Below are positions 5,844 through 55,700 of a stretch of DNA of 64,000 nt, piece by piece. The notes beneath the pieces are model-generated. The model was not told the origin of the DNA, searched no databases, and saw only the letters and a program-made list of their open reading frames with translations. The DNA is from Undaria pinnatifida (Eukaryota > Sar > Phaeophyceae > Laminariales > Alariaceae). Where the stretch lies: NCBI GenBank assembly GCA_012845835.1, contig JABAKD010000020.1, positions 2,986,936-3,050,935 on the forward strand, written 5' to 3'. Within the stretch, counting starts at the first letter, position 1; every line of letters starts with the position of its first letter. The translations under genes and the position numbers were made by a program.

Positions 5844-7616
5844 TTACTTGGGTGCCCCCGCCACCACCAAGCTTCCGTCCGCCTCCCCCTGCTTCTCTTC
5901 CTCTTCCTCTTCCTCCGGCTCCGGCTCCGCGACGACGAAGAGCCCGCCGTTTCTCCTCATGATCTCCTGGAAAGTCATCATTCCCACCATCATGCTCACT
6001 ACCGTCATCTGCCCGTACACACGCGTGTGCATGAGCTTCTGGCTGAGCTTGAGGTTCGTCTCGTTCCGCATGGAGAACAGGATCCCTCCCACCGCAGGAG
6101 CAGCCATGCCAACTGAACCAAGGGCAGCGGGGTACCAACCACGGACGGGGTGATTTAAAAAAAAAAACAATTTCGAAACAAAACGTCTTGCAAGAGCAGT
6201 GGGGGACCAATCATGGAGGGAGTGATATAAAAAATCCAGCTTCGAAAAACAATAGTTCCAAATTGGATTTGATATTATCGCATGGGGGGGGAGGCGGGGG
6301 GCAGTTAGTGATGGCCCAAGGATAAACAAGCCAATGGATGAGGTAACCCACCAAGGTACAGCTAGGCCCAGGATGTTTTCGTTTCACGTTTTACCGTACA
6401 CGTCGGTCTGTACGCGACAAGACACTCGCTTTTACGAGCCACTTTTTAGCCACGCCCACGTTTTCCACAACAAACTAATTGGAATTAGAGTCGGATACTG
6501 TTAGCAGTGGCAACAAGGATAAGGGCTTCGTTCAACCATTGTACTAGGCTGCGAAAAAGAACCTACCCTAATACCAAGTAGTTAACCCCCCAAAAACGTG
6601 CATGGATGCAGTTGCGAAAGGATTGAGCGCCTCCCGTAATCGCCTCTCGAAGCCTAAGGTAAAAGACGCTCGAAGCTCTGGGGCTGGAGCTTTGGTCGGA
6701 ATTCTGAGACAGAGATTTTTGTCCTACTGGAGCTACAAGCAGGCTGCGGTGCGGCTTTGCACATTGTCTCCTGTCCAAACAGCAGTGGGCTAACGTGACG
6801 AGGGCACCAGGCCGGAGCTCTGGGGCTTTGATATACTCTTTCTTGGTTTCAGTGACAATGCCGAGCGATATGCCTGCGAACCAAACGTGTCCCCGGGAGT
6901 TGCTATCAATATCTTCCAGTTGGCATCTGGTGATACTTACGTTGCAGGTGAGCAGCTGAACATGGTTCAGTTAGTTTAACCTGACGTCGTCAGCTGATGC
7001 CACATGATAAAAAATACGACCACGTTTGGGAAAAGTATATATACGTAGTCCTGCCGGCAGTTCCTTCAGCCCAAGTCTACACGTACACACTGCCTAAACC
7101 GACAAGTCGACGCTTCAACCACCACGATAATCTCCACAACAACAACATCGACAACAATAACAACAACAACATCGACAACATCGACAACATCGACAACATC
7201 GACAACAACACCAACACCAACAACAACACCAACAGCAGCAGCAACAACAACAAAACCACCACCACTCCCACCACCACCACCACCACCGTCACCACCACCA
7301 CCACCACCAAGAGCAACACCATCGACAACAACACCAACACCAACAACAACACCAACAACAGCAGCAACAACAACAAAACCACCACCACTCCCACCACCAC
7401 CACCACCACCATCACCACCACCACCAACAACAACAACAACACCATCAACACCACCACCAATAAGAACTCACTCATCATCTTGAAAGGATTTTGGTAGCAC
7501 CAGTTCGCCGCCTTCTTTGTGGCCGACAATTGCTGCCCGTTTGTTGTATTAAAAGACTGTTTGACGTCGTCGTCTACAATTCCGTACGCTTGAGGGTCGA
7601 CGTTGGCGGCGTGCAT
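5844..7616 (-). CDS. HIG1-domain mitochondrial inner-membrane protein
   Basis: Two exons on the minus strand, 7616-7472 and 6112-5844, give 137 residues. The donor is A|GTGAGT and the acceptor GTTCAG|TT, and the split codon gives Ile. The HIG1 signature spans about residues 41-98: QNPFKMMIGMAAPAVGGI, then a polar turn with MRNETN, then KLSQKLMHTRVYGQMTVV. It therefore has two membrane helices joined by the typical SQ..M..RV..Q motif. The tail after residue 110 is acidic (EPEPEEEEEEEK). HIG1 proteins (Rcf1/HIGD family) associate with cytochrome c oxidase and respiratory supercomplexes; that role is inferred from the family. The start ATG at 7616 lies inside a longer open frame, so an extra upstream exon joining near 7640 (TACGTAG|AC) is possible. 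A G/T-rich simple repeat starts about 10 nt after the donor. Confidence 0.8.
7136..7462. repeat. AAC/ACC simple-repeat array in the HIG1 intron
   Basis: On the gene's sense strand it is a GTT/GGT-rich array beginning about 10 nt downstream of the 5' splice site at 7471. It includes five 9-bp ATCGACAAC units (7169-7210). A block of about 100 bp is repeated with a 123-bp offset (7201 and 7324). The polyThr/Asn and polyVal/Leu frames here are not genes. Confidence 0.95.
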
Positions 7617-12757: not shown

Positions 12758-15700
12758 ATGGGGCTGACTGCTTTATTGGCGTTCGCGCTGGCAGCTTCCC
12801 CAGCAACAATCCCACACAAGGCAGATAGCCACGCCAAGAAGCACTATGGTACTGTGCACCGTCGTTCTCCTTTGATGGCGAACCTGGGCGTGTGTACCGA
12901 ACAGGATTGCTTGCAGCAAGGGGCACCCCGAACCCTGGCAAAGCTTAAAAAGGTCGCGAAGGGGACGGGCATCAAGGTGAGCTGCATGGAGATAGAGATA
13001 CATGATGACCTGTCTATAATAAGCCACTGCCCTTGCTCTCGGTATGCACCAGTTATGAAGTTCTGGGCTGTGGCTCGCAACAACTGCGCCAACGGTTCTG
13101 TGCTTGCCACCACGCTTTTTTCGCCTGTATTTGTACCTGGCATTTTGGGTGTGAGGCAGGCAGTCTTTTTTTTCAGATGATTCGTGCTGACGTACACCTA
13201 TTTTCCTATTTTCTGCCCTTCGCCTGGTACCTCCTGATACATGCATCTTTTGATAGGTGTGTTGGTGTGTTTCAATACAAGCAATACAGATGTGTTTGAT
13301 ATCGTGGGCAAAGCTTAGGCCCCACGTGCCTAGCATGAATGAGGCACCAGTCGCCCGGCATCGCATGGCAGGATAGATCATTGCTCGGTCATGGTGGGGA
13401 GGTATTGCGCGGGGGCATGGAGTGTCCCCTGCAGGTCGGCCTATTGAGCAGGTCCTCGGCGAGTACTCACTTTCTTATAGGGCCGTTCTTAGGGCCCAGA
13501 TTGACGAAGAGCACGGAAAATCGTAATTCGATTTTATTTTTTAATTTTATGGAAAATTCACGAAAAATTCCATTCTGCTTTTTATCAAGGAACGACGTAG
13601 TGCGTTCTAGAAAATGAAAAAAAATCCAAAAAACGCAAAAGGGTCAACGAACACCCGTGGGCAACGACCGAGGCGAGCGATGGCTCGCGTCCTACCCGCG
13701 GCTAGCGGCAGATTGTTTTGGCCAGCAGCGGCTTGGAGGCTATGGCTCTAGGCGTCTTTTGGATGGGCTGGCGCCACTCCGCCGCCCGACACGGGCAGCA
13801 GCGACGGGCTTATAGCGGTCGAACTTCTGAGCGAAGTCATCATGTGGCAGTTGGTCGTGTAACTTTCGAGGTGCAGGGCGACGAAAAACTGGGTTTGCGG
13901 CGGTCTCGACTGTTTTCGAAGCGTCGCAGGCGGTCTACGCTGTGCCAAGGACCTTCGGAGGCCGCGCTGCGGCTGCTCCGGTGGTCCTACCTCTCGCAAT
14001 GGTGGCTTCTCGCCTCTCAATCAGCCGACGACATGGCACCAATTCGCGTGGCCGGCTTCGGTTACATGGTACATGCCATGCCTAGGTGCACCAACTCCCC
14101 AAATTGATTTCGATTTTCGACTAAATTCGACCGAGAAAGTATTTTTTTACTTCTTTGTTGAATTTGATTTTTCGCAATAATTCTGAGAATGCCTGCTTGG
14201 TGATTCATTATTTGACCAATCAGATACAAATTAAGTTCAATTCTACAAGAAAAAATCGAAATTCAATTTGGCAAGCTCCTCGTTAATTCGGGCCCTTATC
14301 GGAGACCTTTTTCGTCTTAAATTTCCTAAATTTTCTAAATTTCCATATTTGTGAAATGTGTCTTGAAATACGGAGGCGTTCTTTAATAGTTTGCGATTTT
14401 TTTCAGCCCCAAAAAATATGGAAAAATTAACAATAAAAAATAGGAAATCCTGTTGTCGATTTCCATATTTCGAAGGCAGTGCTCCGACAAGCGCCGTGGC
14501 TCCACGCTGGGACCATCGGGTAGCTTTAAACGTTGACCAGGGTGGCCCAACATTATGGCCGATGGAAGGAAGCGGCCTGGGCCTCCGGAGGACTCATCCT
14601 CGAGTCGGACGAAACAACGATTCAGCCTTCCCAGTTATCCAGAAGCGAGGCGCAGAAACATGAAGAAGGTTATCGCTGGTGTCCTCATCGTGCTCGGCAT
14701 GTTCCTGACACCAGGGGCTGCTGTCGCCGGATTGCACGAATCTACTTGGCCTGGGTGCTTTCCTCTGCGGACTTCCGGGATGTTCGCTCATGCTTGCTGT
14801 GTGACGACGCGCGTGACTGTTCGTGTGGGTGGTGGCGGTCTTGCTTTATGACTCGGCTTTCAAAAATCAGGAAAAAAAAAGACAAACAACCCCGCGCTCG
14901 ATAACAATGCAGACGTTTTTCCATGGAAATCATGGATAAAAAGAGGAAATAATTTCAAGAAAATTCACATCTCCGATACGAACGGCCCTTAGCCGTAGTA
15001 GAGAAGTAGCTTCATTATTTCCACAGAGCCCTGGATAGCGTCTGGCAAAGCGCAGGTCGGCCTATTGAGCAGTTCCTCGGTGAGTACTCACTTTCTTAGC
15101 CGTAGTAGAGACATATTTTTATTATTTCCACAAGAGCCCTGAATAGCATCTGGCAAAGCGCAGGGGACACTCCGTGTCCCCGCGCAATACCTCCACAGCA
15201 TGGCGTCGACGGCAGGACATGAACCTGCGCGTGAAATCACAATGGATTCGAAACCCATTAATTGTGAAAGCCATTATTGGATTTCACGCGCACATTGCGA
15301 AACCCATAGTGATTACACGCGCAGGTTCGTGTCCAGCCGTCGACGCCATATTGTGAAGGTATTGCGCGGGGACACTGAGTGTCCCCTGCAGGTCTGCCTA
15401 TTGAGCAGGTCCTCGGTGAGAACTCACTTTCTTAGCCGTAGTAAAAAATTAGCTTTATTATTTCCACAGAGCCCTGGATAGCATCTGGCAAAGCGAGGCG
15501 CATGCCTCGACTACATTTCCTGACTATCCCGACTAGAGAACGCCAACCTATCACCATACGAAAACGGCCAATTATCTATCAAATCGGATAATTACATGCC
15601 TTTCAAGGCCGTACCTCAACAATTGTTCTTGTGGCTTCAAGTGTGTTACTCGCAGACTGCAGGGGGCTGTCAGCCAAAATTGTATGAGGATAAGTGTACT

Positions 15701-22500: not shown

Positions 22501-24308
22501 TCCCAGTGGCTCGGGATTCACGCGCGCGATTGGCCTCCCTGTTTTCTTTGCGGTCTTGAGGTTTTAAGTGCTGCTTTGATTTTTGCGATATAAGTCCGCA
22601 ATGGAATTGTAAGCCACACTCTTACGACAAAAAATCGCCCAAAGTCTTTTTTCCCCGTAAGGTCCCGGGCCACTCGTGCGAGTGGCCCAAACCCGGTAGT
22701 CAAAAAAGGGGGCATGATAGAGTATGATAGTACAATACTGCAGCCTTGGGAGGAAATGTACATGTTTTAACATTGCGGGACATACCCACTTGACCGCTCG
22801 AATGCTCTTTTCCGGGCACTCTTAAATAGAGGTACCCCCTGTACTGCGAGCACAAAATATTAGAAGAGCGAGTGTTTTTGTTAAGGTATTAGTGGGGTAT
22901 TAGCCCGTTTGACCACTTGCAAAAGGTTAACCAATAGCTTACCCAAACTAAGCCTTATACTTGTAACACTCTCCTCTACTGAAACGGCGGGATAGCAGGT
23001 CGGATGGATATACGGGTGGACCTGTTAATATCCAAGCGGTTTCATTTCCTGGGGATACCGGGGAGAGTACTTTTCAAGTTCGACATGGGGAAAGTCTGAA
23101 AAAGTTTGTTATTGTGGATGGGGGGATTTATACCCACGACCCGAAAAACCCATGGTCCTGCCGACGACGCCATTTGTTAATGAATTAGTGGGGGTATTAG
23201 TCCGTTTGACCACTTGCAAGAGGTTGACCAATAATAGTTTTAGTAGGATGAGCGCACAGCAGCACGTTCACCATCATATTGCACGCGTGTCGCACAGCTT
23301 CTTGCTTGCAGGTGGGGCACTGTATTTGTCACTTGTTCTCACATCAACTCGCATAATGAAGTCCGTGGTCACAGGACAGGCTCCAGTCACTCTGGCGTGG
23401 AAGAATGAGGTGAGTATCGGCTATAGCGATCCCAAATTTATCGAGCTCACAGCTGACGTGTTTTAAAATAATGCTATAAAACACGCCAGGAAAAAAATCG
23501 GAAACAATAAAGCAAACCATGTCACTATCATACCCAAACCCCGAACCCAGCAGTGCTTCGTGTGGCCCACGCTGTAGGTACGTACCAGGTATCACAAATC
23601 GCCTCTCGTCGTCGTTTCCCACCTCTGAAGTCCAAAGCAAACGCGTACTTGTACGTATTCTCAACGAGGTACAACTGTCAGTGGTGGTCCCTCATAGGTA
23701 GTGTGGTGCCTTACCAGATAACAATCACCGCACTAAAATGGGACCCGAACTATCACGGGTTAGTGTAGCATACCTGATATCGGTACTCTGAAAGACGACT
23801 GCGTGACAAGCGATTTTCACCGCACTAAGCCAGGACCCCGCACTAAAGGGTGCGCACTTCGGTGAGACCCCGACTGTTCCTGTATGATACAACCAGACAA
23901 AGTCACTAACTCATGAGCTGACGTCACCTGGAACGGGGATTCCCCTGACGGACCAGCGCTTCGCCGGGTTGTGGCAGCAACGATGGACGGGTTGGTGGTG
24001 GCATCGTTTACACCGGCGCAGGCCAAACGCTCGACCGTCGCCAAGTCGGCAGTATCCGCCCAGACCGTTGTTTGCCTCTGCAGCTGGTCCAACAGAGAAA
24101 TCGTAGTGCCGGCTGCTGGAGTCTGCTGGCTGCCGTCGTTCTCCGTTGCAGTTGACATTGCTGCCGTGCGCAAGTTCTGACGATACGATGCCCCGCACTG
24201 CCGTGGAGATGTGGTCCTTAGAGGGTAGGCGTGATGCCTCGTGAGCAAGAGCAAAAGGCAGAAGAATGTACCCAACAGCGTACATGAGTCGTAGAGTCGG
24301 AGGCTCAT
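19538..24308 (-). CDS. TAL: Transaldolase with bipartite plastid-type presequence
   Basis: Six exons (minus): 24308-23928, 21623-21520, 21239-21155, 20853-20685, 20343-20149 and 19803-19538. All phases close, giving 399 residues. Transaldolase moves a dihydroxyacetone unit between sugar phosphates in the non-oxidative pentose phosphate pathway. Motifs: TVWADTADL (Asp85), [36 protein letters not shown] with Schiff-base Lys201, [37 protein letters not shown], and C-terminal EEKTFM..IEGFTRD. Residues 1-27 are a hydrophobic signal-like segment ending RHHA; Tyr28 starts a Ser/Thr/Arg-rich stretch before a second Met at 51, as in plastid presequences of algae with secondary plastids. The fifth intron starts with GC (AATAG|GCGAGA), the only choice that restores [11 protein letters not shown]. 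Residues 111-127 are poorly conserved. Intron 1 contains a pentamer satellite and a TRIM. Confidence 0.92.
22176..22452. repeat. (TAGTG)n pentanucleotide array
   Basis: About 55 units of GTAGT/TAGTG with scattered point changes (TGGTG, CAGTG, TCGTG). It lies in transaldolase intron 1, far from either splice site. Confidence 0.95.
22508..22710 (+). repeat. Dispersed repeat, copy 2, with perfect hairpin
   Basis: Partner of 16390-16860. It includes a 10-bp perfect stem GGGCCACTCG-TG-CGAGTGGCCC at 22667-22688. Its counterpart near 16820 keeps only GTGCGAGTGGC. Located in transaldolase intron 1. Confidence 0.6.
22880..23238 (-). mobile_element. TRIM copy E, 5' LTR (element sense) truncated
   Basis: One LTR spans 22880-22968, with a small insertion near its end. 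It is followed by the polypurine-tract complement, the internal region and the primer-binding-like complement (GTCCTGCCGACGACGCCA at 23156-23173). The second LTR starts at 23175 and is lost after about 23238. It lies in transaldolase intron 1, in the same sense as the gene. Confidence 0.75.
23250..23480 (-). repeat. Uninterrupted R1 repeat copy
   Basis: Read on the minus strand it runs CACGTCAGCTGTGAGCTC, then CCAGAGTGACTGGAGCCTGT immediately followed by CCTGTGACCACGGACTTC and ATTATGCGAGTTGATGTGAG. It is the same order as the sequences flanking the TRIM pair at 330-1094, without the insertion. Confidence 0.65.
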
Positions 24309-25465
24309 CTTATTCCTACAACGCAACAACAGCAAATACTTCGTAAATAGTAACAGCGGTGCCACTTGCACGATGAGATCACAACTGTTGCTGACCAGTG
24401 CTGGCGAGCGTGCGTAGCCGTAGCAGTAGCCAGCCGTCGCGTGCACGGGTAGATGATGCTCTGTAGCGTGGAGTCTTTAGCACACAGACGAGAACGAGAA
24501 CACGACAGCGAAAGTTGGCTTCAATCATTAGATACAGCTTTGAGGCGTTCCATCTTTTTGCTGAGGCATTCGGCATTAGGGTGTGGACTAAGCACCTAGC
24601 ACCCAGCAAGGCACCCGTGTGGCAGCGAAGTTCAGCTTGTGTGCAGTGTGCCGATGCCATAGACTGGGACAAGAACATGGACAGGGGCACGGGAAAACGC
24701 GGCCATGAGGGCGGTGAACGGGTTGATAGCAGCGAGGTGGTTTCGAGCCTCAAGCGGCACTCGAAGATACGCAAAAGAAGCAAGAGGTGAGCGACAATCT
24801 GTCATCCAGTACCCAGAGGTGTTCGTTGCCGTCGTCCTTCTGCCGTTCAGCTTGTAGCACTCGTCCTCGTACCACTGTCCGCAACGGTGTGGTCGTGATA
24901 TGATTGCTTGACACGGACAACAACGAGAAGCATCCACCATAGGCGTTATTGCTCGTTAAAGATGCGTTGGTGCCTGAGCGCACGAGCTACACCGACAACT
25001 CGTGGAGTAGTCTATTAATACGAGATATTTCGATATTTCGCTGTGTGAGCCCTGGTGTGCTTTGTGCTTTTGTACCTTTTGTTCTTTATTTCCCTCCTCT
25101 GCTTTCTGTCTCCGTTATCTGCTTTCACCTCTTTAGATACCCATTATCATATCATGTCAGGTCGTACATGCTTATCATAGCGTCCAAAGGGATTGCTCTG
25201 CACGCTGGTCCCAGTGATGCTTCTCTAGTACTGCTGCTACGAGTGCTGACTACCGCAATAATACCAGTAAACGCCTCCCGCGGCGTAGCGATTGTGCAAG
25301 CTTGAAAAGCAACCCGCGGCGTTTACTACGTGGCCGGGCGTTTTGTGAAAACATATCTCGGGCCGTTTCGCCCCCTTGGGCGATAGAAGCAAGAAAAAAG
25401 CACGAAAACGTACACGCCCCTAATATATTAAGCAACGGCACAGCCTGCAGCTGCAGTTGTTGGCC

Positions 25466-34500: not shown

Positions 34501-37500
34501 ATCTTTATGAAACCCTTCTAACATTGCCGATCCCGTAACTGGTCTTTCTGGCGGATCCTCTACATCTCTCCCAGATCATGTGCGAGCGGTACCCCGACCT
34601 GCACTTTATCATCGGCGGCGACGGTCCCAAGCGGCTGCTTCTAGAGGAGATGCGGGAGAAGAGCCAGCTGCACGACCGGATAGAGATGCTGGGAGCGGTG
34701 CCCCACTCTCGGGTGCGAAGCGTTCTCGTGCGGGGCCATATCTTCCTCAACTGCAGCCTGACGGAGTCGTTCTGCATCGCCATCTTGGAGGCCGCCAGGT
34801 ACGAAGATGTCGAGTCGTGCCGTGCCGTGCCGTGTCTTGTCGTGTCGTGTCGTGTCGTGTCGTGTCGTGTCGTGTCGTGTCGTGTCGTGTCGTGTCGTGT
34901 CGTGTCGTGTCGTGTCGTGTCGTGTCGTGTCGTGTCGTGTCGTGTCGTGTCGTGTCGTGTCGTGTCGTGTCGTGTCGTGTCGTGTCGTGTCGTGTCGTGT
35001 CGTGTCGTGTCGTGTCGTGTCGTGTCGTGTCGTGTCGTGTCGTGTCGTGTCGTGTCGTGTCGTGTCGTGTCGTGTCGTGTCGTGTCGTGTCGTGTCGTGT
35101 CGTGTCGTGTCGTGTCGTGTCGTGTCGTGTCGTGTCGTGTCGTGTCGTGTCGTGTCGTGTCGTGTCGTGTCGTGTCGTGTCGTGTCGTGTCGCGTCGTGT
35201 CGCGTCGTGTCGTGTCGTGTCGCGTCGTGTCGTGTCGCGTCGTGTCGTGTCGTGCCGTGCCGTGTCGTGTCGTGTCGTGTCGTGTCGTGATGTGTCGTAT
35301 CGTCCGCGAAGCAGTGGAGTTTGCGCTAGCAATGGGGAGGCATGTTTGCTGTGCAGTTAGAACGGAATATATGTGGCCACTTTTCGTGGAGCGGCGCTCT
35401 AAGACAACTTTGTCGCGCCTTCTGGCTGAGGTCTTGTCGTCGCGTTGATGCCGTTGTTTGGCGTAGTTGTTGATGTTGGTTTGCATGTGGTTGTGTGTAT
35501 TCCGGGGGGAGTGGGGTGTACTCAGTTTGTGCATGGCCGTAGTCGTATGACATTAGACCCTCGCATCCCTACTATGCCGGGACGGAGCACGTCGGGTTTT
35601 CACCAACCAGGCAGACATTGCTTGCACCAAGCGCGAAGCGCCATGAGATGTTCGGCGAGTCGCATGAAGGGTGGACTACATCCTTCCAAGAACCCCTCGT
35701 AAGACGGCCTTCGGCACTTTGTGCCTGCTTTCTTGCTTATGGATGACAGTGCCAATTAGTTATTTTGTTTTCTGGTGTGGCCTATGACAGCGCCAATGAG
35801 TTACTTTGTTTTTTGGTGTGGCCATGCCAGAGACAGCAATGGATATTACTATGTAACTGCCTCGTGGGTGCCTTACCATATTCACACTACGTGATGCCAT
35901 CGATCATTCCGCTTGTGCGGGGTTAGGGTCCTCCACCCCGCACAACATGATCAACCTTGGTGACTATCATGATTACCGCAAAAAAAACGGTACCCTGGTT
36001 GTCTAACTCACGTAGTGATTGGCATTTTTTTACGGCGTCGTTGCCCACCAATGCCAATCCCAACGTACATGTAATGTTTTACAGCGTCGGTACCAACCGA
36101 GGACAACTACCATATATACCAGGTATATTTTCAGGGGGGTAGACAGGGGGTTATTTTCGATGCCCCATGGAGGAGATGGGGCGTTTGAGTGACGAACACG
36201 AAGCAAGGGGAACACAACAGCAGCAATAGTCTTGGTCTGGCTCCTGGTTCTTCTTGATGACTGGTAGTACTTATCTTCCTGCCTCGTATCCCGACTCGTT
36301 CGTCTGCTTCGAGTTGTCGGCACCGAAAGCCCAAGAAACATACCACTACAAGTTGTTCTTGCCCTACAAATACGCCACGCAGCTTGCAAAGCCAATCGAC
36401 TACTCAATCGGTCGAGCTTACAGCTGACGGTCTTCAAATTATTCTTAAATCAATTATCCAGCACGAGTCAGCCCCCCCCCCCGTCCCCCGCAATCCGCCT
36501 TCTCCCACCCTACATCGGCTCTTGGACGACTGGTGACGTGAAGCTGCGGTCTCTTTGTGGTGAGTACGGCAGTTGGCGGTGTTCCCGAGGTTCTTCCGCG
36601 TCCTATGATCAAGTTCGCGGAGCCCACGGTGGAAGACTTGACAGACGCGCTGGCAGACGCGATCCCTCTGGCAAGAAAAACCGTGCCCAGCGAGTTCCAC
36701 GCGAAGGTGTGCATTTTTCAGTGCTGTCGCTTTCGAAGAGAGAAGGTTGGGTTTCTCGTACATTGTGCGGGCTTTTTTCTTGGGAGGGGGGGAAAGACGT
36801 ACGCAATATTCTAGAAACAATGGTCGCATGCGTACATGTGAGTTCCTTCCTTTTTTCGTCTGGAGGCCGAGAAGGGCTGTTATATTGCGTCATTCATGTG
36901 ATATTCCTGATATTCGCGCTGCGCATGATGTGGCGTGAGTGGACTGTACAGAGTTGGCGAAACCAAATTTGTGTAGATATTGGCGCGGGCAGCCTTCGGG
37001 AGGTCAATGGTAGATAATCATGCGTCGATCGGCCTGTCCGTTCGTTGCGAGACCGATTGATACGGAAAAATGGTTTGGTACAAGTCATCCGTGCTTTCGT
37101 CGGATTTATGGCGTTTTTTGTACCGCAGAAGACGCTCGTCGACGGAGGGTAATTGTCTGCGATCCAAGCTCAGTTTTGGATCGTGCATTTAGCATCGCGG
37201 TACGATTATGTGTGCTTGTTGGGTTTCCATGGCAGGTCAGGGGGATGTACAGCTGGGCGGACGTCGCGGAGCGAACAGAAAGGGCGTACGAAAGGGCGCT
37301 CAAGGCGCCACCACCTAGCCTCGTCCGAAGGTTTCATGTAAGTCCCGCCAACGGATTGTGTGGGATGACGAACCAACAATCCGCCTGGTGCCGTGTACAC
37401 ACCATACGCCCACCAATGCATACATGTTTTATTACACATCTTGCTTCTTGTCGTGTGATCGGCTTGTCATCCTTATCCATGACGGGCCGTGGATATCTCC

Positions 37501-49700: not shown

Positions 49701-52700
49701 CTGGCATACGGCTGTTGTTACGGGTTTGACGCATGGACTATAAATACAGTAGTATGGAAACCGAAAAAATATATATCACACACAGAACCTTGATACTCGC
49801 GCGGGTCTCATTATTTACTTACCGGACAGACATACTTTGATTGCATTCGTCGTTGCTCGAGCGAAGCGGGCGGCGTCAGCCGCCCGCGGAGTGGAGCACT
49901 TGAATTAACTACCACGCCTGTTAGAATTGGCTGTATGCATCACTTCTGACGTACTGTGCCAAATTTCAGCAGTAGTGTCAACTGCCAGTACATGACTTGT
50001 TCGAAAACCAAAATGAAAACCCATACTTGTAGCAGCTATATATGCGCAACAACTGCATCTTCCCAAAAAATGTCAATTACATAAGAACAAGCGTGAAACA
50101 ATGCTTCAGTGATCAAGGTTGATACAGAAAAATAAATAGCTACCTGGTACCCGCGGCCGACCAAGAAGAGGTGTAGTGTTATAGTGTTACTGATGTATTA
50201 CTACAAAACTAATGTTGCTCAAATAGTCTAGCAGCCTACCTCGTTTCTGGTGCCCTCCATTTATACAGAAGGCGTGTGGTGCTATGGTACATAGTACGAA
50301 ACAAGTAAATCTCGCTGTGAAAGTTGGTTCGACCCCGTCGATGCAGATGTTCTTCCTAGCGATCCAGATGATGATGGCGCAGCGATCCCAGGAACGAAAA
50401 GGTTCGTTTCAGTCCCAAACGACGATGATGTCCAGCGATCCGAGGACAGGTTGTTCAAGCAGTCCTAACAATGAAAGTGATGTTCAGCTACTTCAGCAAC
50501 CCGAAACGATAGATGATGTCAAGCGATCTCAGAAACGATGTTCCCGCAAGCCCACACGGTCGATGATGATGCGGCGATCCCAGAGAACGTCTCCCCCGGC
50601 AATCCCAGTAGATAGATGGGGCCCGATTCCGAAAGACACCTCTCGGTCGACCCCACTTTGCTGTTGTTCTGGCGACTCTGAAGCTCCGACAGATCCAGCG
50701 AACAGTGCTGTAACGATTTCGGAAGGGGTCACTTCCGGCAACCTCAAGCGCTTTTTGCGGTGATCCAGTAGAACCGTTGTATCGCCTAACCGTTTAAGTC
50801 ATCAGGCTTCCACTTGTATCGGCGACAAGGTGGTACCTGTAGATAGTTGTATTGCTTTCTGTCGCGTGTGGTTTCATGAACCAAGTTTCGTGGCGCTCGT
50901 CCAAGTCGGGCGCCAAGGGTGAAAAATTTGCACGAGCTCAAACTTAGAGCCCCCCTGTGCAGTCGGGTGCCAAGCGTGAAGAAGATTCACGAGCGACAAA
51001 TCGGAGCCCCCGGTCGAAGTCGGTTGAAGAAGCAGGCCGTCTTGCCACCGCGTGGCTGCCGTTCGTTCTCGTTGGCGTCTCCCATGTTCAGCAGTACGAG
51101 AAGTTCCTCCGGCACATGTCGCACCTGTGCTCACTCCAGCAAGGAGACAATGATAGTATTGTCGAACCAGCCCATCACCCGGTCACGTACCCAAAAAAAA
51201 CAGTCGAACCAGACCCTGACGCACTACCACGCGCAAGGAGGAGGAATCAGTCGAACCCGACCCTCTTGATGTAGTCGGCAAAAGCGGCCAAACCAGACGC
51301 GACCAGCCACGTACGTACTCAAAACCAGCTGAATCAACCCTCGGCGACACGTACTCGAAACCTATGTTTCGCATAATCACAAATGTGCTGTGGTATGGTG
51401 CGGCGTCGTAGGCGTTGTTGTTGGTATTGTTGCTGGTGACGTTCTGTATTTCTTCGCAAAGCACGTCGAGGATATACGATGTTGTAATCGTACACAGCAG
51501 TATTCCTTGTCGTTGCAGCGCGGCAGCTCCAGAAGGCGACCCGTGGCATTTGTTTAGCGTCTCTCGCAGCAGTCGTAGCTCCCAGATGGCGATGAGTGTA
51601 GCAGCTCCGCAGAGGGGATTAGTTTATTCTTCAGCAGCAGCTCTAGATGATGAGGATGGCGATCAGTCCTGGCAGCTCAGTTCGGCAGAAGCAGCAGGTG
51701 GAGGTCCTTAGGCCTATTCGTACTAGAGACGCACCCGCAGTTCTGCCACCCTGCTGTAGGACTTGCGTAAATCGAGGCTCATAACCTATTCGCGACATAC
51801 CGCATGTATATGGCGTGAAAGGCCTGTTGGGGTACTTTCAGACAGTCTTCCAGGTATCAAATGGCAAGAAGTTTCAGTCGGGGATCAGGCTATCAGTTGC
51901 ATGAGCTGCTAGCTCCGCAGAGCTGGTGGAAGAGAAGGCCCTCCAAAGCCAGTTTTGTTGATTGTCGGCGGTCGAAGAGGAGACGATGGGTAGACGAGAA
52001 GACACAGTAGGAAGGAAGTGCGCGAGTCATGGTCGATCGATTGCAGGTCAAGACCCCTAAAATGCGGTATGGTACCCTATGCGCATAAGCTTTTCAAATG
52101 CAAGCTCGGATAATCTCAACCGGGTTTTCGTGGCAACACCGCACTCTGTGAAACCGTTCGTATGAAACCGTCAAGATCGGGTCCCATATTTTGATAGTAT
52201 TGCTCCTCGTGGAAGTGCTCATGTCAATGCTTTGCTCTAAGAACTACCAGATGTATCCTTAGATGATTATGGCTGTGCCCCCAGACAACCGATAGGCTGT
52301 TTAGTGCTCGTAGCAACATAGCTATATTCTATACTGCTCGCTCGCGTTTGTGTATTATTCGCGCGAAACCGTTTTCTCCACCCATCGAGTGATTGTGTGA
52401 CGTACTTATCTTCCCGTGTGTCTGCCTTTTCTCTTCCTCATGTCCCTTCTGTTACTTGTTTTACAAAAAATAATAGATACCGTTACTAACTAGCATGGCC
52501 GAGGTGCAAGTCACCGTCCAGACGGACGCGGTGAAAGACATTCCTTGCGGAACAAGCGGCGGCGTTATGGTTGACTTCGGTATGTGAGCGGCATTCCAAA
52601 CGATAATTGTTGATGTTGTTTTTGTTGTGGTTGTTGTTGTTGTTTTTGTTGTGGTTGTTGTTGGTGGTGGTGGTGGTGGTGGTGGTGGTGATGGTGGTGG

Positions 52701-55700
52701 TGGTGGTGGTGGTGGTGGTGGTGGTGGTGGTGGTGGTGGTGTTGGTGTTGGTGTTGGCGTTGGTGTTGGCGTTGGTGCTGGTGTTGGTGTTGCTGCTGTT
52801 GCTGTCGCTGTTGTTGTCGTCGTCGTTGTTGTCGTCGTCGTTGTTGTCGTTGCTGTCTTTGTTGATGTTTTTGATGTCGTTTGTTGCTGTTGTCATTGTT
52901 GTTGCTGTCGTTGCTGTTGTGTTGATGTTGCTGTTTTAAAAATATCATCTATGGCCACAAGACAGGCCCAGACAACATACTTGCGGTGCGTATGGGTACG
53001 ATTCGATACGTTTATGTTCAGGAGCTACGGGCTGTTGTGTGTCACGCGAAGCCCACCAAAGTATAACATGGGGTTCGCAAAACAATCAGGTGCTCGTTTC
53101 ACGCATGGTTGCAAAGGCCATCGCACCGTACGCGCCATCACACGACTACCAATATCGATCGCTCGTACGGCCAACAGGATGGAGGGTAAGAAGACGCCCC
53201 ACCGGCTGACCATGTGCTCCGCTACTGCTGTACGAGTAGGCTGGCCTGTTATTTCTGGTCTGCCGCTACACTCGTTGCCCTATACAACTCGCGAAAGCAT
53301 GTCGCTCAGGTCTAGGGTTTTATTTTATTTTTCCGGGATTAGAACTAGAGCTGTACAAAACTGTACTACAGCAATATGGCTCTATGTTGTGCGCTAATCG
53401 TGCTCAGCGATTAGATGTGATCTCGTTGTCCTCGGGGGAAACTCTTGGTCGATTTACGGGAAGCAAGTGATATTGCATATCGTACCGAACGCTTTTTGCC
53501 CCCCACCCCAGAGCATGTTCGTATATTTTGTGCTGATACTGAACGGAATAAATCGACTTATTACATCGCACATCGAAATCGCGTTTGTGGATTTGATTTA
53601 TCGCTTATCGATGACGAACTCTATTCTGGTTCGTTATCCATCACCCAATTACAGCCAAGGTGGAGGTCGTCAACCGTCTCCGCAAGTCGCATGTGCTGGA
53701 TACCATCCGCAACTACACCATTAACTACGACACCACCTGGATCTTCGACAAGATACAGTGAGTGCCGCAACCCGAGATAGACTGACTGGCAGGTAGGCTG
53801 CTACGTAGACAGGTGGGCGTCGCGCGCTTTGGCTGAACAATTAAACCCGGGTCAAACTAAGAGCCCGGGTGAGGAAAAAGGCCCACAAAAAAACGAAGCG
53901 GTACTGCTGTGCCAAACATAGTATACATGTATCGGCATGCCTTTCTCCCACTTGGAGCGTGTGAGCCACAGGTAGCACAAGCCGTCATTTTTCTCTTCTC
54001 CAGCGACTGGTTTATTTGTCGTACCCTACCTCGTATGCTAAAACCACAGCAGTGTACAATGTCTACCTCACCGGTCGATCACTAACTCCGCTTGTTTGCC
54101 CCCCTCCCCCCATCCGACGGACTACGGCCATATGCATGATATGATGATAACACCCCCCCCCGCTAGCCACGAGATCAACCAGTTCTGCAGCAAGCACACC
54201 TTGCACGAGGTCTACATTTCTCTGTTCGACACGCTGGACGAGCACCTAAAGGAAGCGCTGCAGATCGACTGCGATGTTTGGGCCCCAGGTGCGTCGTTCG
54301 CCCTGTGGGTGAAAAACGAAAATACAGCGAGTGTTTGATGGTCCTGTTTTGTGCCGTGCCTCCTAGGTATCTGAATGACAGTAACTACCATCTGTTTTTC
54401 TCCGGGAGTATCATCTTCGCGATTTTTTGCCTGCCGTTCGCCGTGCGTTCTTTCCGGTAAGCAAATATGCTACCAGGTATTTAACACAAGACCGTTCTTT
54501 TCGGGCGCGTCAAAGCCTACTTTTCCTGAATATGATGAGTTTGGTGTAAGAGCGGTAGGGCTGTGGGTCGGCGCGACTTAAGTTGCTCACTAGTTATTAG
54601 TCGGACTCATCTTAATAGTCAGTCGTGAAATGGAGGTGCCGATTTTCTGACTTATTGGGTTTCAAGTGTGTAAGAAGGCGTCTTCAATGCAGGATGCAGC
54701 TTTTTCACGTGGATTGCTCCGGGCTGCGGATACCCTCACATGCCCGTTGACACTGCAACGCGCGGCGGGAGATCCACACGCACGCCCACGCATACGTGGC
54801 GGAACGATATGTAGAGCTGACGTTCATCCGGTGACTCGTCTAAGTCTACGTATTGTAGCTCTGGGTCCGTGGAGCAGGTTGCCCGTTTAATGTTTTATCA
54901 TACTGTACTGTATGTCTTTTGCTTTTTTGCCAAAACTGTTATGCTGTATGATATGATAGATGGTTTACGACTTGCGTTCAATTATTAAGCGAACAACATC
55001 CCGGAGGGATCTAAGACCTTTATCTTTGGGGGTAATTTAAGCACCGCTAGCTTCGCGATAATTTCGCTGTTTCACTCGTATCCCCATCAGGTGATATTGC
55101 GACTGAAACAGTCATGGCCCTCTAGTTCTGGGCAGAACTACTTGTTACTTTTCTTGGAGCTTGTACTTTTCATGTGTAAACTGAAGCCTTCTTTTTTATG
55201 TTGAAATTTATATTAATCTACTGTAGGTCATATTTCGTGCGCTTTTCTTGTGAAAGCCAAACAAAGTAATTTTCGCCTCTGGCGGCGCCTTCAGCGGACT
55301 CCTCCGGAGGCGCCTCCGGCGGGCCCTCCGAGGGCGCCTCCAGCGGGGCCATCTCGGCGGAGTTTTTTTTTTTGCTCACTTCGCTTCGCTGAATAGCGAC
55401 TACCATGTCATCAGTTGCGAAATGCAGCCGATTGCAGCTCTAAAGAGCGGTCAACCAGGGGCTCAAACCGCGGTCTCCTAGTATTGTAGTGTAGGAGCGA
55501 GGTCAACCAAAGGGTCAAACCTCGGTCTCCTATTAATAGTATATTTGCTGCAAAGCACGGTGTCGTCACTGGTGTGCTGGTAGGCTCGGCGGAAGAGAAT
55601 CGCGTTGTGTGGCGCGGAGGAGCGACGATTTTTGTTTTGGAACATGAGGCGATCGGTAGTAGATGTAGTTTGGCGATTGCAAACCCAAGGCGTTTATCCT

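Follow-up and report, generated by a model that had tools for sequence, protein, structure and literature searches.

How did the end of a long terminal repeat (LTR), a retrotransposon primer-binding site (PBS) and half of a serine tRNA come to lie together, in mirror image, in a chromosome of Undaria pinnatifida? The window, a 64,000-nt stretch of contig JABAKD010000020.1, carries such a palindrome. In the standard scheme of LTR retrotransposition, m1A58 of the primer tRNA halts plus-strand synthesis, and only 18 nt of the primer tRNA are copied. The initial annotation, which described a palindrome of LTR-like sequence, a primer site and a tRNA-Ser-like 3' half, proposed that copying had run past this usual stop and that two such ends had then been joined head to head.

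The palindrome itself was confirmed. Its arms (15160-15248 and 15301-15389) are 89 nt each, 90% complementary and separated by a 52-nt spacer, and the stretch aligned to its own reverse complement with 81% identity across 234 columns. Both arms run from an LTR end through 3 nt and a PBS into the complement of tRNA-Ser, and comparison with the genomic tRNA-Ser(CGA) genes L059, L060, L070, and L077 establishes the match from the acceptor strand, by way of the T arm and variable arm, into the anticodon arm. For the right arm, the minus strand carries the element sense, and from 15621 the order is a 270-bp LTR, 3 nt, TGGCGTCGACGGCTGGAC, and the tRNA-Ser complement (T arm, variable arm, and anticodon). 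The features are as follows.

15352-15621, minus strand: full LTR of 270 bp, TGTTGAGG...CCTTCACA, aligned to the LTRs of relatives.
15331-15348, minus strand: PBS of the right arm, TGGCGTCGACGGCTGGAC, pairing with the 3'-terminal 18 nt of CCA-bearing tRNA-Ser at all but one position.
15298-15330, minus strand: tRNA-Ser(CGA) complement past the right-arm PBS, up to the anticodon, with T at tRNA position 58.
15259-15297, no strand assigned: palindrome centre, where the anticodon stem and variable arm are partly repeated (stutter).
15219-15258, no strand assigned: left-arm tRNA-Ser complement, with T at position 58; the minus strand turns between TTTCGAATCCAT and TGTGATTTCACGCGC.
15201-15218, plus strand: PBS of the left arm, TGGCGTCGACGGCAGGAC.
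15160-15197, plus strand: last 38 nt of the LTR (LTR positions 233-270), inverted relative to the full LTR, 94.7% identity.
15052-15160, minus strand: LTR fragment (LTR positions 127-234) in direct orientation, 89.9% identity.
14988-15052, minus strand: second LTR fragment, initial part (LTR positions 127-191).
13478-14987, no strand assigned: later insert dividing the LTR fragment, with TTA on either side and GGGCCGTTC-type inverted ends, outside the palindrome proper.
13400-13477, minus strand: remainder of the second LTR fragment (LTR positions 188-265), separated from its first part by the insert.

The LTR has TG...CA ends in common with other copies and aligned over its full or nearly full length to 20 of the 21 LTRs of relatives that were read (74-83% identity), that of L011 aligning partly. 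A length of about 115 bp was rejected, since the relatives show 270 bp. The PBS begins 3 nt after the LTR, and its 18 nt are complementary to CCA-bearing tRNA-Ser(CGA) except for the right-arm mismatch. Only the right side has a complete LTR. The left arm keeps just the last 38 nt, after which the sequence switches to LTR position 127 and LTR pieces follow in the opposite orientation. The 1.5-kb insert at 13478-14987 we take to be PIF/Harbinger-like, by the criteria for that group.

The two arms agree on T58, disagree at position 57, and did not copy site 26. The turn falls after tRNA position 27 and before G26, so that the second half of the palindrome reads, on the minus strand, TTTCGAATCCAT followed directly by TGTGATTTCACGCGCAGG. 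The same turn is found at two other loci, L097 and L098, and the placement of the window turn rests on comparison with them because the window centre (about 15259-15297) is stuttered: it holds extra partial tRNA pieces, and its mirror is inexact. Stutter-like insertions near this position are also present in L053, L061, L074, L119, and L141.

Alignment of both arms with a tRNA covariance model, which the initial annotation had proposed as a check, succeeded in part: the minus strand of the left arm scored 16.8 bits with the Rfam tRNA model (E 0.15; gathering score 29), as a tRNA lacking its 5' part, and the right arm gave no tRNA match. Across the window, neither ARAGORN nor Rfam at its gathering threshold gave a match, and miRNA matches under gathering scores were read as chance hairpins. 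A 16-nt PBS pattern with up to three mismatches occurred nine times in the window versus 0.46 expected.

Some usual marks of an LTR retrotransposon are missing from the window element. Two complete direct LTRs are not present, the second being 5'-truncated, partly duplicated, and split by the insert. No polypurine tract was found before the 3' LTR, the LTR pieces directly adjoining the palindrome with no internal 3' end left, and reverse transcriptase and RNase H, by which a Ty3/gypsy-type element would be recognized, are absent from the element. Around it, no target-site duplication was found (the flanks are AACAAT and CCATGACC, the exact 3' end of the second LTR being uncertain), which counts against a read-through reading. 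Pfam searches of 20 window ORFs gave only two weak matches, both under the cut-off.

Other features of the window were recorded alongside. An open frame at 23820-24476 (minus strand) has a partial, below-cut-off transaldolase match (35 of 285 profile positions) and is perhaps an exon. Long tandem repeats of short units, one of them GTGTC, occupy 34505-35534, 7083-7490, and 52607-52881. A separate family of TRIM-like elements, family 1, lies at 330-1097, 1316-2129, and 22879-23233, with two elements head to head at 330-1097. The element at 722-1097 has the properties of a TRIM: LTRs of about 86 nt that are 98% alike, a PBS-like TGGCGTCGTCG, AGGGGGGGAGAG preceding the 3' LTR, and small size. The internal region of family 1 contains a sense-strand stretch resembling a tRNA T arm, GGTCGTGGGTTCGATCCCCAC, which is also found in genome copies such as L145, L157, and L159.

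The 511-Mb, 68-contig assembly that includes the window was searched for related junctions. With the palindrome as query, one full match and at least 39 single-arm places were obtained (40 of 758 candidates scored). The single-arm places fall in 38 regions, a set biased towards copies resembling the window, and all were read: 20 as stretches of about 8 kb, the other 18 as stretches of 0.7-0.8 kb. Every one of the 38 showed an LTR end, a PBS, and then a tRNA-Ser complement, with differing stop points. LTR-tRNA junctions of this kind are numerous, and the window case is not a unique accident. A second LTR in the same orientation was present within about 2 kb at seven of the 20 loci covered by about 8 kb of sequence (L011 in part, L014, L017, L021, L022, L023, and L026), and at 3.8 kb in L012. 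L009 has RVT_1 and RT_RNaseH_2 domains downstream, with no 3' LTR in the stretch read; among 20 ORFs scanned, three of them from L009, the other 17 gave only a sub-threshold RNase H match, in L012. Viral contigs scanned with three patterns gave no matches.

Counts of the primer site and its extension put these junctions in proportion. The exact 18-nt tRNA-Ser PBS occurs at 2,503 places genome-wide (reversed control, 1), and a PBS pattern continued through position 58, with any base allowed there, into the T stem occurs at 425 places with at most two mismatches (reversed control, 0). From the first 100 of these listed, 40 extended places were read, all of them exact matches, with a 17-unit tandem array on contig C13 and loci of the other sets excluded. 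All 40 carry a tRNA copy behind LTR-like ends (by eye), followed by other sequence. The last copied base was index 27, directly before G26, in eight places, which makes it the commonest single endpoint; it was at index 28-32 in 13, at 17-25 in eight, at 6 in two, and at 36-54 in nine. The scored ends of L119 and L141 (42 and 43) are too early because tRNA sequence continues beyond an insertion. The last 25 nt at the far ends all differ, and 13 of 780 pairs of places have a downstream 14-mer in common, which represents related retrotransposon sequence. At site 58, these places have T in 27, A in nine, G in three, and C in one, under a pattern unable to match a gap there.

Plain PBS sites on contig C1 served as a control. 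Twenty regions with 21 sites were taken from the first 25 listed (448116, 448197, and 1851427 were known to be extended, and 3473126 lay outside the sample), and all 21 sites depart from the tRNA match right after 18 nt, as judged by eye over mixed LTR families. On these counts, copying stops at 18 nt as a rule, with read-through in a sizeable minority. An alternative in which every element regularly contains the tRNA segment, which the initial annotation had named as grounds for abandoning its proposal, was dropped in view of the 21 control sites read and the varied endpoints. Priming of an LTR retrotransposon by tRNA is known elsewhere; here a minority of elements have inherited primer tRNA sequence.

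For comparison of copies with genes, an exact D-arm pattern was located at 50 genome places and, together with L010, whose D arm differs slightly, 51 places were examined, comprising 10 tRNA-Ser genes and 41 copies. Six of the genes have the anticodon AGA and four CGA; none is followed by CCA, and G26 and A58 are present in every one. Among the 41 copies, 34 retain an intact CCA continuous with the PBS, and LTR-like sequence follows most copies (by eye). The concern that the organism's tRNA-Ser genes might not match beyond the terminal 18 nt was not borne out: the match reaches the anticodon arm in the window and the tRNA 5' end elsewhere. Two copies, L071 and L090, were dropped for low score, leaving 39 for counting, in which index 26 is G26 and index 66 is A58.

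Changes in these copies are concentrated at three sites. G26 is changed in 37 of 39 copies (28 A, 7 T, and 2 C); of the remaining two, L061 has retained G and L072 is one G short in that run. All six AGA genes have A at index 34, and in the 26 AGA-type copies this index is G in 22, A in two, and C in two; all 13 CGA-type copies keep C there, copy type being assigned by best score with index 34 included in the scoring. A58 is changed in 27 of 39 copies (20 T, 3 G, 2 C, and 2 deleted). At the other 54 sites of index 25-81, 81 of 2,106 cells are changed (4% per site), with a maximum of 6 of 39 copies at any one site. Binomial figures for the hotspot sites are 1e-24 and smaller, a calculation that takes the copies to be independent, although strictly they are not. 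Sites 7-24 were covered by the search pattern and are uninformative, and sites 1-6 are changed in 7, 4, 7, 5, 12, and 1 of the 39 copies, some copies ending there and site 5 distinguishing the two isoacceptors. In L055, L079, L080, L081, L086, L088, L089, L024, L027, and L082, isoacceptor types are mixed between the 5' acceptor strand, the anticodon, and the PBS, which may reflect recombination or an unseen gene.

The changed sites are the expected places of m2,2G26, inosine-34, and m1A58. Eukaryotic tRNA-Ser carries m2,2G26. In zebrafish, position 58 is m1A in nearly all tRNA groups, m2,2G is found at position 26 in groups such as Ala, Leu, and Phe, both modifications give errors in tRNA sequencing, and A34 edited to inosine reads as G (PMC11417395). 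More than 90% of tRNA-Ser(AGA) had I34 in one cell study cited in PMC13191261, and reverse transcriptases stop or misincorporate at m1A depending on the next base (PMC4787781). From these correspondences, we infer that the copied Undaria tRNAs were themselves modified at the three sites. Two marks of primer tRNA read-through were found: the tRNA copy is contiguous with the PBS, CCA included, and its changes are concentrated at bases expected to be modified. Further observations count against this reading. A58 remains unchanged in 12 of the 39 copies and, among 18 antisense tRNA-Ser(GCT) places, in 15; the variable-arm C at index 52 is changed in none of the 39, despite the m3C described in the variable-arm loop of zebrafish tRNA-Ser (PMC11417395); and some copies mix isoacceptor types, as listed above. 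The 18 tRNA-Ser(GCT) places begin with TGG (17) or TGA (1), and this isoacceptor may also prime elements.

Parts of this picture have precedents. In HIV-1, m1A58 is held to be the plus-strand strong-stop signal, and mutation of the methyltransferase results in synthesis beyond A58 (PMC13191261). The likeness lies in plus-strand synthesis past position 58 of the primer tRNA; the difference is that the HIV-1 case is an experiment with lowered infectivity, whereas here there are many chromosomal copies with changes at three sites. PMC12220202 describes two further cases, a retroviral circular DNA in which a tRNA lies between the LTRs (Colicelli and Goff 1986) and an HIV provirus that carries a tRNA-Gly copy at its 3' end. 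Common to these and the Undaria copies is LTR DNA joined to a reverse-transcribed tRNA, and the HIV copy includes CCA. They are single cases with tRNA-Gly, described there as a spurious primer or as self-primed, whereas here the cognate primer tRNA is contiguous with the PBS many times over and is found in palindromes. Helenus TRIMs (PMC10886601) are likewise short LTR elements with tRNA-like sequence, but theirs lies within the LTR; the tRNA part here is antisense and bears CCA, and in the window it follows the PBS and is not inside the LTR.

What lies beyond the tRNA copies takes two forms, jumps and snap-backs. Among the jumps, the tail re-enters the 376-nt family-1 element at position 128 in L137, at 222-224 in L103, L106, and L124, and at 271 in L133; in L110, L111, and L132 it enters an LTR, and in L115 a tail from a different LTR family continues into a family-1 LTR. 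A tail that resumes inside the element leaves a shortened element as a consequence. Snap-back is best displayed by L097 on C1, a palindrome with 398-nt arms in which four of 398 paired positions are mismatched, two of them at the very centre. It turns after tRNA index 27, in the anticodon stem, between TTTCGAATCCAT and TGTGATTTCACG, and its arms agree at A58. L098 (G000:C13:868343-874117) is a 17-unit tandem array with a 359-bp period. The two units that were read are TRIMs with a tRNA copy to index 27 and 7 nt of copy-back, after which the unit returns to an LTR end, followed by PBS and internal region. Contig C48 has a second palindrome with exact arms.

Turns also occur at the acceptor stem. 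At four loci, exact matches place TGGC directly before the tRNA 5' end (the pattern gave one reversed-control match at up to one mismatch); these are three of 27 intact-ended copies (L054, L076, and L093) and L100. At such loci, the tail can pair with the PBS via the acceptor stem, and an inverted LTR lies beyond the turn in L054, L076, and L093, not in L100. Folded as DNA, the tails have their 3' end paired. Many shuffled sequences folded at least as well: 49 of 200 for a 58-nt tail, 14 of 200 for the full tail, and 22 and 47 of 200 for two 21-nt tail ends (-2.1 kcal/mol each).

These observations are very probably best explained by plus-strand synthesis that ran past m1A58 into the mature primer tRNA-Ser and left a tail that snapped back or jumped. 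An LTR retrotransposon would prime with mature tRNA-Ser; during plus-strand strong-stop synthesis, its reverse transcriptase would pass m1A58 and copy the still-attached tRNA, with errors at modified bases and frequent stops immediately ahead of m2,2G26, within or around the anticodon loop, or at the 5' end of the tRNA. Beyond the PBS, the resulting 3' tail would mismatch the minus strand and could not be extended normally for that reason. It might then fold on its own anticodon or acceptor stem and copy itself, giving palindromes, or prime elsewhere in retrotransposon DNA, giving shortened elements, and the product would enter the chromosome. We infer the order of these steps, the self-priming, and the route of integration from the anatomy of the sequences, the mutation hotspots, the endpoints, the varied junctions, and the sister palindromes, all of which are directly observed. 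Points on the other side are the missing target-site duplication, the stuttered window centre, tail folds that many shuffled sequences equal, and the lack of an inverted LTR beyond the turn in L100. Snap-back on the anticodon stem fits both the window palindrome and the near-perfect L097 palindrome. Read as one molecule, the window would comprise an LTR, PBS, tRNA copy with stutters, anticodon-stem snap-back, PBS', 38 nt of LTR', and a switch to mid-LTR.

The palindrome could instead have arisen in the chromosome, by inverted duplication (replication slippage or fold-back repair) of an LTR-tRNA read-through junction that was already integrated. The tandem LTR pieces beside the palindrome, which speak of local rearrangement, and the messy centre would suit such an event; the turn at an identical tRNA base in the window, L097, and L098 and the recurrence of acceptor-stem turns do not, and we regard this origin as unlikely.

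Head-to-head end joining of two independent read-through ends, the second half of the original proposal, would equally yield an LTR-PBS-tRNA/tRNA-PBS-LTR arrangement, and it is in keeping with window arms that differ at 10% of sites and with a left LTR part of just 38 nt. The arms of L097, however, share A58 and are mismatched at just 4 of 398 paired positions, as predicted if one strand was copied, and the turns lie at the anticodon or acceptor stem, where a tail can pair with itself, with three of the acceptor-stem turns leading into an inverted LTR. Joining of two ends is accordingly less likely than self-primed snap-back, and we consider it improbable. The first half of the proposal, copying of the primer tRNA past its usual stop, is strongly supported genome-wide by the 425 extended places and by the hotspots at 26, 34, and 58.

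Long tRNA contacts aid priming in some retroelements, and selection might have maintained the tRNA complement as a long PBS belonging to the regular structure of the element; with endpoints that range from index 54 to index 1, far ends that differ in 40 of 40 places, and only 18 nt at 21 of 21 other PBS sites read, this is very improbable. DNA-level capture of a tRNA gene or a tRNA-derived SINE beside an LTR, as proposed for Helenus, whose elements do have tRNA-like sequence in their LTRs (PMC10886601), is scarcely credible because it leaves unexplained the intact CCA continuous with the PBS in 34 of 41 copies and the changes at 26, 34, and 58, which a gene-derived origin does not predict, and because the tRNA part lies antisense after LTR and PBS.

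Neither component of the read-through explanation is new in itself: single cases of retroviral DNA with an attached tRNA copy have been described (PMC12220202), and experiments have already produced read-through past A58 (PMC13191261). None of the titles and abstract openings listed in our searches of open-licence papers describes integrated LTR retrotransposons with changes at modification sites in their primer tRNA copies. In many chromosomal copies of this genome, the stop at position 58 failed, and, base by base, the copies preserve how the enzyme acted at positions expected to carry modifications and where it fell off. Several questions become testable from DNA: which tRNA modifications were present when the elements moved, how the retrotransposon polymerase handled them, and whether short non-autonomous elements and palindromes originate in strand transfers that failed. 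The fullest version of this interpretation, on which we are evenly divided, is that the genome is a natural recorder in which retrotransposons regularly copied whole modified primer tRNAs, the tail was a main route to shortened and palindromic elements, and sites 26, 34, and 58 can be read out. If that is true, past tRNA chemistry and reverse transcriptase behaviour would be readable from DNA alone, and the Undaria genome may hold a record of that chemistry.
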